From positions 4,233,001 to 4,297,000 of the forward strand of contig NZ_CP040396.1 in assembly GCF_005577435.1 (NCBI RefSeq): DNA of 64,000 nucleotides, written 5' to 3'. Below, in pieces: positions 822-5,636 of the stretch (within the stretch, counting starts at the first letter, position 1; every line of letters begins with the position of its first letter). Both the position numbers and the translations under genes were made by a program. The notes beneath the pieces are model-generated. The model was not told the DNA's origin and searched no databases. It worked only from the letters and a program-made list of their open reading frames with translations. Origin of the DNA: Paenibacillus algicola (lineage in GTDB: Bacteria; Bacillota; Bacilli; Paenibacillales; Paenibacillaceae).

Positions 822-2411
822 ATGAGTCGACAAATTGCAATCATCGGAAGCAGCGGAGGAAATCTTTACAATCTGGGTGGTAAAGACCCTCGAAGACTGC
901 TGGGCGAAATTTTAATTCAAATGGAAAGTGCCGACTTAAGCTGTGCTGCGCTTCAATTTATTGCCGCAGAGGCGTCTATGGATCAGGCCAAGCCTGATAC
1001 CCGGGCTACTCTTTACTCTTGGAAGATGTCTCAAGACGAGCCGGTCATCGCGGCCCAAGGAACGCTGCAGGAAGTAAACGAGGCTGCCCGGCAGCTGGAT
1101 CAGGACATTGCAGAGCAGATTAGTTTGGGTGAAATTGACGGCATCATCGTCATGAGCGCCGACCCGGAGGGAACCAACCGCCTGGTGTTTGAAGCCGCGG
1201 CCCGTCATAAGATCCCGGTGACCGGGACGGGTGGCACCTCCATGGCTGGCATTCAATCCCGAGGCGTTCATGTCATCGCTGCATCCGGCACGACCGGCAC
1301 GACGAACCGGACACGCGCCGTCACCTTCGTAACCTCACTGTGCAAGCATTGGCGGATGCCGTACCGTCCTGTCATTGGCAGCTCGGCTGGAGCCGGGACA
1401 GGAAATGATGCGCTGTCTTCTCCGTGGAAGCGAATCAATCTGCGCGGGATTATGATGGCCTCATTGCCCGGTTTTATCGCGATGGCTCTGATCCTGGCCG
1501 CGAGTAAGGTTCCCGGGCTGTCGTCACTGTCCACCGTGTTCGAGCTCATGATCAAGGCGCTGCCGGTCATCTTGGCTGTTATTGCGGCCAAGCAGGTGTC
1601 TGAGCTGGATGAAGTGTCGATTGTAGCCGGTATTGTGGCAGGTGTGCTGTCTACAGAAGGCGGCATTATCGGCGGAATTATCGGCGGGATCGGGGCCGGA
1701 CTGCTGGTGCACTATATTTTTCGTAAATGTGTGGAATGGCGCTTTCCCGCAACGACAGTGAACATTGCCGCTGGAGGCTTGGCAGGCCTGATCTCAGGTT
1801 TAGCTGTATACTTCCTGATCGCTCCAATCGCGCTGGCCGCCGGAGAAGGCATTCGCGGCCTGATTGAAATGCTCGTTTCCTTCAGCCCGGCCATCGCTGG
1901 ATTGATCGCCGGCCTGCTCATCTGGCCAGCCATTATTGGCGGAGTATACCACGCCGCCATTCTGCCGATCGTGCTGCTGGAGATGGAACGCACCGGCAAC
2001 AGCTTCCTCGGCGCTGTAGACATGGTCGGTCTCGTGATGGTCTCGGCCGGCATTACGCTCGCCAACATCGTAGCCCCAAGAGATAAAGGGGAAGCGGCCG
2101 TCGCCGCACCCGGCTTTGCCATGAATATGGGCTTTGGTACCTTTGTCGAAGCTGCGTATCCCTTTATGTTCTCGAACAAGCTGGTGTTCGGCGGAGCTAT
2201 CATGTCAGCCGGCCTGGGCGGACTGCTGGTGGGTCTGTTCGAAGTCCGCGGAACCGCTTATGTTCCGTCCTTCTTCGCACCGACCTTGTCCAACAATGCG
2301 TTTGGCTTTACGATCTCCATGCTGGCGAGCCTGCTGTGCTCGTTCCTCATTACGGTGATACTCAACAAGCTTTCGCTGGGACGCCGTCCCAAGGCTGATG
2401 TGAGTATGTAG
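822..2411 (+). CDS. PTS EIIC-like multi-membrane protein with a soluble N-terminal domain
   Basis: 529 residues, ATG behind AGGGGGAG. The C-terminal part (about 205-520) has roughly nine hydrophobic segments rich in Gly/Ala and resembles the PTS_EIIC_2 group of permease-like proteins. The N-terminal part (about 1-195) is soluble, opens with a glycine-rich IAIIGSSGGNLYNLGGKD stretch and carries a second Gly/Thr-rich run (GTGGTSMAGIQ, ASGTTGTTNRT), which suggests a nucleotide- or phosphate-binding fold. No IIA, IIB or HPr-like partner gene lies nearby, and no EIIB cysteine or EIIA histidine motif is evident. It stands alone between two terminators. Whether it is a true phosphotransferase permease is doubtful; substrate unknown. 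Confidence 0.6.
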   Translation: MSRQIAIIGSSGGNLYNLGGKDPRRLLGEILIQMESADLSCAALQFIAAEASMDQAKPDTRATLYSWKMSQDEPVIAAQGTLQEVNEAARQLDQDIAEQISLGEIDGIIVMSADPEGTNRLVFEAAARHKIPVTGTGGTSMAGIQSRGVHVIAASGTTGTTNRTRAVTFVTSLCKHWRMPYRPVIGSSAGAGTGNDALSSPWKRINLRGIMMASLPGFIAMALILAASKVPGLSSLSTVFELMIKALPVILAVIAAKQVSELDEVSIVAGIVAGVLSTEGGIIGGIIGGIGAGLLVHYIFRKCVEWRFPATTVNIAAGGLAGLISGLAVYFLIAPIALAAGEGIRGLIEMLVSFSPAIAGLIAGLLIWPAIIGGVYHAAILPIVLLEMERTGNSFLGAVDMVGLVMVSAGITLANIVAPRDKGEAAVAAPGFAMNMGFGTFVEAAYPFMFSNKLVFGGAIMSAGLGGLLVGLFEVRGTAYVPSFFAPTLSNNAFGFTISMLASLLCSFLITVILNKLSLGRRPKADVSM

Positions 2412-2450
2412 ACTTAGGCGGCGCAAGCCGATGTCACTGGCGCGCATAGG

Positions 2451-2491
2451 AAAGGGGCTTCTTCATCTTTCGATGAGGAAGCCCCTTTTTT
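2451..2491 (+). terminator. Strong terminator between convergent genes
   Basis: AAAGGGGCTTC and its complement GAAGCCCCTTTTTT form a long stem, extended by TCATC/GATGA around a TTTC loop, with T6 on the + side. The mirrored A/T pattern may also serve the convergent minus-strand gene. Confidence 0.9.
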
Positions 2492-2515
2492 AGAGTTATG
2501 GCGCACTGTCGCGAT

Positions 2516-3148
2516 TCAAGGCTTTACCAGTTCATAATAATCCCGAAACTCCAGCGGTTCCCGATCCTTCGCACTCACACTGAAGTAAAGCTCGGGGCGC
2601 CCGGCCGGATGCGCCTTCATTGTATAGTAGCCGGTGGACCAGCTGTATTCTACCTCGGTGACCTCAAAGGTCTCCTGGTATTTATCCTGCAAATATTGCT
2701 CTGCTGCACTGCTTGCTGCAGCCTGCTCCCGCTCTGTTTTGGTAAAAGGCATCATTCCGACGGTATAACCTCCATACAGACTGCCCGCAAAAAGAGCTAC
2801 ACCGAGCAATCCGCGCAGCAGGAGACCTGGTGCAGCCAGGCGCCGCTCTTTGTTCAGCTGCTCTTGCCCATCCTTCGGTCTCCTGAAATACATCGCGGCG
2901 ACCCCCACACCGATCAGATGAATCAACAGCATCGCCGGAGCAATCAGCAAGCCCATAAAACCGAGGGTGAAGAAGAACAGCACTACCGCCAAACCTTGAA
3001 AGACGATGAACAGAAGGGCCCAGAATATCATCCAGCCCGTACCGATGTACATCATCCCTGCTCCCGTAGCGATCAGTGACAGCACGACAGCCGTCCAGCG
3101 ATGCTTATTCCAGTTGTTCCAGTTCACCGCATCCTCCTGCTTTTTCAC
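2516..3148 (-). CDS. Small membrane protein of unknown function
   Basis: I place the start at a GTG (MKKQEDAVNWNNWNKHRW...) because GGGGGAG sits 5-6 bases before it; a longer reading to 3190 lacks a ribosome site. The 210-residue product has about three to four membrane segments in its first 125 residues (a hydrophobic hairpin, then a segment after RRPKDGQEQLNKERR) and a C-terminal soluble part (about 135-210) with a compact acidic/aromatic domain ending in FRDYYELVKP. The arrangement, membrane part plus outward soluble part, suggests a surface-exposed tail. It lies 56 bp downstream of fumC and may be co-transcribed with it. I do not recognise the family. Confidence 0.7.
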   Translation of the reverse strand: MKKQEDAVNWNNWNKHRWTAVVLSLIATGAGMMYIGTGWMIFWALLFIVFQGLAVVLFFFTLGFMGLLIAPAMLLIHLIGVGVAAMYFRRPKDGQEQLNKERRLAAPGLLLRGLLGVALFAGSLYGGYTVGMMPFTKTEREQAAASSAAEQYLQDKYQETFEVTEVEYSWSTGYYTMKAHPAGRPELYFSVSAKDREPLEFRDYYELVKP

Positions 3149-3203
3149 CGTTCTCCCCCTGCCCTTCATGCACCTTGTATTAGGACACATTCCCTTTAGC
3201 CTG

Positions 3204-4592
3204 TTAAGCTTTCGGGTGAATCATCTCCTCCGGACGAACATATTGATCAAACTCCTCCTCCGTCAGCAGCCCGCTGGCGAGCGCGGCTTCTTTGAGCGTC
3301 GTTCCTTGCTGATGTGCCTGCTTCGCGATGGCTGCCGCATTCTCGTACCCGATATGCGGGTTAAGCGCGGTAACCAGCATCAGCGAGCGCTCCATATTAG
3401 AGCGCAGCACCTCCAGATTCGCTTCAATACCGACCGCACAGTTCTCATTGAAGGAATTCATGCCATCAGCCAGCAGCCGTGCAGATTGCAGGAAGTTATA
3501 AATAATGACCGGCTTGAACACGTTCAGCTCAAAATTCCCCTGGCTCGCGGCAAAACCAATCGCGGCATCATTGCCCATCACCTGACACACGATCATGGTC
3601 AGCGCCTCGCTCTGTGTCGGGTTGACCTTGCCTGGCATAATAGAGCTGCCCGGCTCATTCGCGGGGATCGTTAACTCGCCAATGCCGGAGCGCGGGCCGC
3701 TTGATAGCCAGCGGACATCATTCGCGATTTTCATCAGATCAGACGCCAGCGCCTTCATCGCCCCGTGCGCAAATACCAGCTCATCGTGGCTGGTCAGGGC
3801 GTGGAACTTGTTCTCCGCGCTGGAGAAGCTCTTACCCATGGCCGAGCTGATTTCTGCCGCTGTTTTGGCGCCGAATTCCGGGTGTGCATTGATGCCGGTT
3901 CCGACCGCCGTGCCCCCGATGGCCAGCTCCCGCATCGGCTCTGCAGCGGAAGCGATCATGAGCTCGCACTTCTCCAGCATGCGGTGCCAGCCGCTGATCT
4001 CCTGGCCTAGCGTAAGCGGCGTGGCGTCCTGCAGGTGGGTGCGTCCGATTTTGATAAGATCCATATATTCGTCACTCTTGACCTTAAACGTATGCTTGAG
4101 CTTCTGCAGCGCTGGCAGGACATGATCCTCGACCGCTGCAAGCGCCGCCATATGCATCGCCGTCGGAAACGTATCGTTCGAGCTCTGCGACTTGTTCACA
4201 TCATCATTAGGGTGAATGGTGCTGGCACTGCCCCGCTCCTTCAGCAGCTGATTGCCTCGGGCCGCGAGCACCTCGTTCATATTCATGTTGGATTGCGTGC
4301 CGCTGCCCGTCTGCCACACCACCAGCGGAAAATGGCTGTCCCATTTGCCAGCCAGCACCTCATCTGCCGCGTCGGCAATAGCCTGGGCCTTATCCTCATC
4401 CAGCTTGCCCAGCTGGCGGTTCGCCAGCGCTGCGCTTTTCTTCAGGACGGCAAAAGCATGGACGATCTCCATCGGCATGATTTCCGTTCCGATCTTGAAA
4501 TTCTCCAGGCTGCGCTGCGTCTGGGCCGCCCACAGCTTGTCAGCCGGCACCTTCATCTCACCCAGGGTATCCTTTTCTATACGATAGTCCAT
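3204..4592 (-). CDS. fumC: Fumarate hydratase, class II
   Basis: 462 residues, the normal length for class II fumarase, which interconverts fumarate and malate in the TCA cycle without an iron-sulfur cluster. The family signature [15 protein letters not shown] is intact, as are the substrate-binding [12 protein letters not shown] and [14 protein letters not shown] segments. ATG start with AAAGGAGGAAT 4-5 bases upstream. The upstream side is occupied by the 51-bp repeat array, with only about 90 bp of ordinary sequence before a minus-strand terminator, so its promoter must lie in 4593-4683 or transcription must pass that terminator. Confidence 0.97.
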
Positions 4593-4683: not shown

Positions 4684-4713
4684 ATAAAAAAAGAGCCCGC
4701 AAGGGCGCAGGCT
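4684..4713 (-). terminator. Minus-strand terminator between the repeat array and fumC
   Basis: Read on the minus strand, AGCCTGC pairs with GCGGGCT (one T-G pair) around a six-base loop and is followed by CTTTTTTTATTT. It would stop any minus-strand transcript coming out of the repeat array before it reaches fumC. Confidence 0.7.
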
Positions 4714-4760
4714 GCGTTGGGCGCAAGACCGCGGACCGGGTGGCGGGCGACGGGCGCAGC

Positions 4761-5526
4761 GAGTTCGGTTTTTCGCGTTCGTTTGCTCCAGAACCGGCAC
4801 AGCGACGCATCGAGGTCGGTTTTTCGCATTCGTTTGCTCCAGAACCGCCGCAGCGACGCATTGAGTTCGGTTTTTCACGTTCGTTTGCTTCACAACCGCC
4901 ACAGCGTCGCATTGAGTTCGGTTTTTCGCGTTCGTTTGCTCCAGAACCGCCACAGCGACGCATCGAGGTCGGTTTTTCGCATTCGTTTGCTCCACAACCG
5001 CCGCAGCGTCGCATCGAGGTCGGTTTTTCGCGTTCGTTTGGCGCGGGGGCGGGCGACGGCAGCATCGAGTTCGGTTTTTCGCATTCGTTTGGCGCAGGGA
5101 CGGACGGCGGCGGCATCAAGTTCGGTTTTTCGCATTCGTTTGCTCCAGAACCACCGCAGCGTCGCATTGAGTTCGGTTTTTCGCGTTCGTTTGCTTCACA
5201 ACCGCTACAGCGACGCATCGAGTTCGGTTTTTCGCGTTCGTTTGCTCCAGAACCGCCACAGCGCCGCATTGAGTTCGGTTTTTCGCATTCATTTGGCGCG
5301 GGGACGGACGGCGGTCGCATCGAGTTCGGTTTTTCGCATTCGTTTGGCGCGGGGACGGGCGGCGGCCGCATCGAGTTCGGTTTTTCGCATTCGTTTGGCG
5401 CGGGGGGCGGGCGGCGGCGGCATTGAGTTCGGTTTTTCGCGTTCGTTTGGCGCGGGGGCGGACGGCGGCGGCATTGAGTTCGGTTTTTCGCATTCGTTTG
5501 GCGCGGGGGCGGACGGCGGCGGCTTG
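4761..5526. repeat. Array of fifteen 51-bp tandem repeats in two classes
   Basis: Units start at 4761, 4812, 4863, 4914, 4965, 5016, 5067, 5118, 5169, 5220, 5271, 5322, 5373, 5425 and 5476. All are 51 bp except unit 13 (52 bp, one extra G). Every unit opens with a nearly constant 24-25 bases (GAGTTCGGTTTTTCGC then R-TTCGTTTG). The remaining 26-27 bases fall into class A (units 1-5 and 8-10; CTCCAGAACCGCCACAGCG type) or GC-rich class B (units 6-7 and 11-15; GCGCGGGGGCGGACGGCGG type). A degenerate half-unit precedes unit 1 (about 4718-4760). Because 51 is divisible by 3, several frames on both strands stay open, so open frames here are not evidence of coding. Confidence 0.95.
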
Positions 5527-5567
5527 CTGCTAACCCTCCCCGGATGAAATGAGCTCAAGATTTGCAG

Positions 5568-5573
5568 TATAAT
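5568..5573 (+). promoter_or_regulatory. Probable -10 box of the heme monooxygenase gene
   Basis: TATAAT lies 41 bases after the last repeat unit and about 60 bases before the start codon. The -35 position (TGAAAT, 17-bp spacing) is weak. The array therefore abuts the promoter. Confidence 0.45.
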
Positions 5574-5636
5574 AAATGTGGACCAGGATTTTAGGCGAAA
5601 TAGGCTGTAATAAGCATAAACCGAGGAGGAATGCAC

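Follow-up and report, generated by a model that had tools for sequence, protein, structure and literature searches.

A palindrome-cored 51-bp tandem array beside fumC in Paenibacillus algicola belongs to a dispersed repeat family with a possible link to IS91-like elements

The window analyzed in this study is a stretch of 64,000 nucleotides from the genome of Paenibacillus algicola, which is assembled as a single contig of 4,475,055 bases (4.48 Mb; NZ_CP040396.1). In the window, fumC (positions 3204 to 4592, minus strand), recognized as an open reading frame with the Pfam domains Lyase_1 and FumaraseC_C, lies to the left of a tandem repeat array with its 5' end facing the array, and a gene for an ABM-domain protein (PF03992; 5640 to 5948, plus strand, with an open reading frame beginning at 5631 or 5640), labeled a putative heme monooxygenase gene in the initial annotation, lies to the right, such that the two genes are divergent and the array is between them. 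When the window was searched with TRF, one array was detected (4755 to 5500; period 51, 14.6 copies, score 732). This array contains 15 cores, with starts from 4764 to 5479, and the spacing between them is 51 bp with a single exception of 52 bp, which bears out the fifteen head-to-tail 51-bp units described in the initial annotation.

To assign units to classes, 24 variable bases of each unit were scored against two unit types, and the resulting order, AAAAABBAAABBBBB, was in exact agreement with the A5-B2-A3-B5 blocks proposed earlier. On the plus strand, the blocks comprise five class A units (4764 to 5018), two class B units (5019 to 5120), three class A units (5121 to 5273), and five class B units, one of them 52 bp long (5274 to 5529). 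A start at 4718, as first annotated, is acceptable because a degenerate, class B-like partial unit (about 4718 to 4763, plus strand, recognized by eye) forms the array edge ahead of the first core. The proposal that the blocks arose by segmental duplication was supported by another array, L096 (L and G numbers designate loci and genomes), in which a nine-unit block of 459 bp is repeated. The claim that the array touches the promoters of both neighboring genes did not hold for the right neighbor, as the right end, at about 5529, stops approximately 40 bp short of a TATAAT sequence at 5568 to 5573 (located by eye); on the left, 171 bp separate the first core from the start of fumC. Between the array and fumC there is a terminator-like hairpin (4694 to 4713), followed, when the minus strand is read, by a T-run (4686 to 4692), and in the sense orientation the two together (4686 to 4713) flank the array on its 3' side. 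This hairpin may belong to the element, as its 3' hairpin, or may be a terminator that predates it, and T-rich stretches or hairpins are also found upstream of fumC in several relatives.

The constant half of the repeat is an imperfect palindrome with a GTTTTT center, recurring every 51 to 52 bp, and is present in every one of the 15 units in the window. In the first core (4758 to 4784, assigned to neither strand), a left arm, CG, the GTTTTT center, CG, and a right arm follow one another. In many relatives, the repeat has the sequence AATGTATGCG-AAAAAC-CGAATACATT on the sense strand of the gene adjoining the core end of the array, and the variant TGTAATCG-AAAAAC-CGATTACA is a perfect dyad; in P. 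algicola, the dyad is less pronounced, its arms are different (TGA or CGA), and CG borders the same center. The spacing is strict in all of the sets examined, amounting to 51 bp for 296 of 304 intervals in P. algicola, 52 bp for 97 of 112 in the relative G007, and 51 or 52 bp for 226 of 235 at other loci, in counts that exclude gaps greater than 60 bp and include repeat fetches of one locus. Five turns of DNA correspond to about 52 bp.

Core identity was 0.89 within arrays and 0.836 between arrays. The variable halves were less alike, with an identity of 0.746 within arrays and 0.495 between them; a CRISPR array was rejected as a candidate, since variable halves that are related within an array are unlike non-repetitive spacers. 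Three orthologous site pairs kept 26 of 27 core bases, compared to 65, 67, and 73 of 90 flanking bases; of the 16 non-self orthologous pairs (three self-pairs were dropped), 11 had higher similarity in the core than in the flanks and 5 had lower. Because both members of each pair were found by their core, this comparison is biased, and since its outcome is also mixed, it falls short of proof that the core is conserved at orthologous sites. Mutual-information analysis of covariation in the P. algicola units gave no clear stem, and the top-scoring pairs mostly separated class A from class B. Upkeep of the palindrome may be due to transposition, to a host protein, or to homogenization.

The array in the window is one of many. 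A core pattern with up to three mismatches matched the P. algicola genome 277 times (202 and 75 times on the two strands) and its backward-read control did not match at all, which excludes a chance origin, and a pair of joined units, used as a DNA query, had at least 165 matches. From the loci read, this genome carries at least 19 arrays, with 5 to 37 cores each and 325 cores in total. Class A and class B units occurred together in 7 of the 19 arrays, and thus the unit types are common to different loci. When the 250-bp flanks of the P. algicola arrays were compared, nothing common to them was found except for one 31-bp match of degenerate units. In G007, many arrays are contained within longer elements that have conserved flanks or end modules; the P. 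algicola arrays are without end modules.

Among relatives, a strict form of the core matched 4 of 60 genomes and a looser form matched 28 of 100 genomes of the same genus, P. algicola being counted in both cases and a few of the 28 having just one or two matches. This search with the constant half supports the earlier idea that the array represents a repeat family found in these bacteria. In named genomes, 43 core-bearing stretches were recovered from 12 organisms, which were Paenibacillus phytohabitans, P. timonensis, P. piscarius, P. silagei, P. rubinfantis, P. contaminans, P. tengchongensis, P. tritici, P. daejeonensis, two further Paenibacillus strains, and one Cohnella. The distribution is patchy, because the three nearest relatives by fumC (G078, G097, and G010) had no match to the looser core pattern. 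Single cores made up 26 of the 64 loci of relatives, and at one apparently orthologous locus the number of units was 11, 9, and 16.

The arrays have a preferred placement relative to genes. Using gene calls from a purpose-written, simple codon-score caller rather than annotation, the gene at the core end was found to read towards the array for 15 of 19 arrays in P. algicola, 15 of 16 in G007 (a seventeenth was without a gene call), 2 of 3 in G028, and 49 of the 54 remaining loci that had a gene call (10 of 64 had none), the last set including several copies per genome or locus and probable orthologues that are not independent. Overall, 81 of 92 arrays and solo copies with a called gene, not all of them independent, had this orientation, and the arrays therefore sit 3' of genes; the gene on the other side was of mixed orientation. 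A replichore strand bias was strong in G062 (19 of 19 among the matches listed) and G007 (20 of 22), and was weak in P. algicola (13 of 19, p 0.084), G092 (5 of 6), and G093 (6 of 7); we read this bias as a probable by-product of gene orientation. At the loci read, arrays were often positioned directly behind an intrinsic terminator. With a strict terminator finder, terminators were detected on the 5' side of 26 of 96 arrays in the sense orientation and 8 of 96 in the antisense, and on the 3' side of 19 of 96 and 5 of 96, respectively. The array in the window, with its divergent neighbors, does not follow this placement; the strict finder detected no terminator on its 5' side, and a hairpin is present on the 3' side only.

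In relatives, several array elements could be connected to a family of transposons. Searching with the 5' end of the array element at L219 identified three near-identical 1.6-kb transposons in G028, which define both ends of the element, the 5' end being as in the L219 array element and the 3' end having a hairpin and then a T-rich tail. The transposase at L272 matched the Pfam families Y2_Tnp (2.9e-34) and Zn_Tnp_IS91 (1.4e-22). Six array elements (L105, L106, L219, L237, L238, and L264) had matches that lie inside the first 178 bp of this transposon from G028, with E values from 5e-15 to 4e-43; five of these matches begin at transposon position 1 and that of L105 begins at position 38, and some include the start of the transposase gene. 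As judged by these alignments, the six array elements have a terminus in common with an autonomous IS91-family element. In three further cases in G028 (L257, L268, and L270), the 5' motif was seen behind terminators, and the 620 bases after it showed neither a transposase nor palindromes; other non-autonomous elements may thus share this 5' end.

Six further IS91-family copies (L292 to L297) were found in G069. A hairpin, a T-run, and the sequence NTTG immediately precede 9 of the 10 IS91-family copies whose start was read (L292 to L297 of G069, and L272 to L274 and L298 of G028; three stretches of G016 were left out). The tenth, L298, is missing its very 5' end and is preceded by the end of a group II intron and not by a terminator. 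The same hairpin, T-run, and NTTG are directly before all six of the array elements, which had been chosen for the clearest 5' end, and among nine further motif-bearing arrays outside the G007 type, six had a T-run of at least 5 within the preceding 30 bases and three had exactly NTTG. At L258 (G094) and L265 (G062), the post-terminator TTTAGGAAATTAT motif is likewise present, and the tandem repeats after it are of a different sequence (GAGGGGCAAAAGTGC...). Two array elements and one IS91 copy have the 3' end of a group II intron (Rfam RF00029; L161:4381-4455, L170:46-120, and L298:376-450) immediately before them, which suggests that group II introns share landing sites with array and IS91 elements. 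Searches of the open-access literature by title and abstract returned no report of a target preference for a terminator followed by NTTG, of IS91 elements targeting terminators, or of these Paenibacillus repeats, and this fits the statement in the initial annotation that the array resembles no named element.

Insertion is also indicated by a comparison of sister genomes. G092 has an element of roughly 600 bp at L219 (about 1996 to 2590), directly behind a terminator, and the site is empty in the sisters G109 and G093. Sister genomes also differ at L224, L225/L232, and L237, and because the junctions there are not clean, L219 alone serves as proof of insertion. At L237 (about 2021 to 3518, G093), the segment inserted relative to G092 contains an array and a long open frame that, by eye, resembles a fragment of an ABC-transporter binding protein; this may reflect either sequence capture or ordinary recombination.

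The connection to IS91 applies to part of the family. Y2_Tnp matches were found in 11 of 100 genomes, with no co-occurrence of the transposase and arrays (4 of 28 array-positive genomes compared to 7 of 72 array-negative genomes), and the Y2_Tnp search of the P. algicola genome gave no match. An IS91-like 5' motif, matching at 12 or more of 14 positions, accompanied none of the 19 P. algicola arrays and 15 of 90 others (6 of 28 of the G007 type and 9 of the remaining 62), compared to 2 for the G007 type and 0 for the others in shuffled flanks. The window array itself has no IS91-like 5' end behind a terminator, and cores were absent from the autonomous IS91 copies and from the DNA fetched around them. 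Because P. algicola carries neither a Y2_Tnp match nor the 5' motif, the case for a mobile origin of the window array is drawn from its membership in the family and from the family's dispersal.

Our preferred explanation, which we hold to be somewhat more probable than its alternatives combined, is that the window array arose by tandem expansion of a dispersed repeat of Paenibacillus and its kin, non-coding and built around a palindrome, which was spread by IS91-like non-autonomous elements. An IS91-type transposase, whose own element ends in a hairpin and a T-rich tail, would take the hairpin and T-run of a terminator for its own 3' end, with the consequence that non-autonomous minisatellite elements would pile up behind terminators. 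After insertion, recombination would change the length of arrays in either direction and swap A units for B units and the reverse, and the bare arrays of P. algicola would be old descendants whose recognizable ends were lost or never existed. A more tentative version, which we regard as possible but short of an even chance, is that IS91 elements use terminators, as mimics of their 3' ends, for landing pads, and that their non-autonomous offspring carry palindromic minisatellites in which dimeric sites, spaced at five helical turns, are bound by a transposase or by a host protein.

Mobility alone does not explain one observation, the 51-52 bp spacing of a second palindrome family. Upstream of the same fumC gene in G078, the closest relative, there are four copies of TTTGTACGA....TCGTACAAA spaced 52, 52, and 51 bp apart, and the spacers between them are visibly unlike. 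Arrays of this palindrome in G078 (L190/L240 and L249), G021 (L239 and L242), and G104 (L241, L244, and L250) showed 39 of 40 spacings of 51 or 52 bp, with one of 50. That unlike palindromes keep a common spacing is suggestive of a protein lattice, and is the strongest point in favor of a model in which a putative host protein binds the palindromes cooperatively and acts as a roadblock behind terminators or in chromosome organization. Dimeric sites five helical turns apart would be on one face of the helix, leaving the spacers free to drift, consistent with the strict spacing in P. algicola, G007, and other loci, with a core that varies less than the variable half both within and between arrays, and with the three orthologous pairs that retained 26 of 27 core bases and fewer flanking bases. 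However, homogenization of tandem units would likewise keep spacing and core alike, two of the G104 arrays (L244 and L250) have related spacers, the evidence from orthologous pairs is biased and divided (11 for and 5 against among 16), and the fixed orientation is already accounted for by an insertion mechanism. We consider the lattice model the most probable of the alternatives, though well short of an even chance.

Less probable still is that the arrays are plain intergenic minisatellites, produced by chance tandem duplication of a seed sequence that is harmless 3' of genes, with no mobile element involved. The P. algicola arrays, with no common 250-bp flanks bar the one 31-bp match, would fit such an origin, and the blocks and the nine-unit duplication are as expected from unequal exchange, but the presence of one core and two common unit classes at 19 or more loci needs a means of dispersal, and the orientation rule and the empty site in relatives argue for insertion.

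The initial annotation had also raised the possibilities of a protein-encoding, a regulatory, or a structural repeat. Stops were present in four of the six frames of the window array (counts of 2, 0, 4 and 1, 5, 0) and in 81 of 108 frames of 18 P. algicola array regions, with all six frames interrupted in 6 of the 18 and no forward frame open in more than 8. Among 17 arrays, variation did not follow a three-base phase (permutation p 0.64), and the 52-bp period in G007, together with these stops, speaks against the coding reading. Because some arrays keep long open frames (in L092, the plus-strand array is interrupted in a single frame), the frame data are evidence against coding, short of proof. 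Pfam searches gave nothing for the minus-strand frame of the window array and, for the plus-strand frame, a match to UBA_BIRC2-3 below the curated cut-off (19.9 compared to 27.2 bits). An Rfam search of the window array returned nothing at E values up to 1, and the energies of six folds, from both strands, were no better than those of shuffled sequences (z 0.27 to 2.02); these results give no support to a structural role as RNA, and a regulatory or structural role of the DNA itself may apply. It is thus highly improbable that the arrays encode a repeat protein or a structured RNA, since a unit length divisible by three in P. algicola, long frames crossing the window array, and a few arrays with several open frames are outweighed by the frequent stops, the phase-free variation, the 52-bp period elsewhere, and the Pfam, Rfam, and folding results. 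Annotators should be cautious, as the long open frames in several arrays are probably spurious.

If the preferred explanation is correct, these arrays would show a source of satellite-like DNA in bacteria and how it spreads, would be a bacterial parallel to Helitron/HINE, and would connect a long-known transposon family with the harmless insertion site behind terminators described for group IIC introns; the many natural copies would allow one to ask what holds the palindrome and its five-turn spacing constant. Under the more tentative version, Paenibacillus would hold a counterpart of the Helitron/HINE satellites in which more than one palindrome family follows one 51-52 bp rule.

Several known systems resemble the arrays in part. 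In the Neisseria NIME (dRS3) and the enterobacterial REP/BIME repeats, small palindromes alternate with other repeats in intergenic arrays, whereas the units described here have a strict 51-52 bp head-to-tail period and a fixed orientation to the gene. Group IIC introns such as B.h.I1 insert just 3' of intrinsic terminators (Robart et al., 2007, as cited in PMC3240598), and are alike in this post-terminator site; they are ribozyme retroelements, and the window array has no Rfam match. The BOX elements of Streptococcus are compared here by architecture and not by sequence. In the pneumococcal BOX, the number of boxB units varies between boxA and boxC ends, making it likewise a modular intergenic repeat with a variable tandem center, and BOX is over-represented between convergent genes (PMC3049150). 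The same source ties BOX to ISSpn2 by terminal inverted repeats and predicts that it folds as RNA, whereas the link here is to IS91 by a common 5' end and the present units are not predicted to fold (PMC3049150).

Closer to the proposed mechanism, IS91 and ISCR elements differ at their two ends, named oriIS and terIS, and probably transpose by a rolling-circle process (PMC13393415). The related autonomous element found here is similar in having a Y2 HUH transposase, an IS91 zinc domain, and a hairpin near its 3' end; the array elements differ from IS91/ISCR in being without a transposase and in having a terminator plus NTTG as target. For a reconstructed Helitron, PMC4778049 describes a 3' hairpin that is the transposition terminator. 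Cg_HINE of the oyster, a non-autonomous element, carries satellite-like central tandem repeats borne on a Helentron (PMC7492417). The Paenibacillus arrays are unlike HINE in being bacterial, in having a palindromic 51-52 bp unit, in being located behind intrinsic terminators, and in being linked to a transposon for part of the copies only, and they are like it in combining a dispersed element, a central short tandem array, and a connection to a rolling-circle transposon (PMC7492417).
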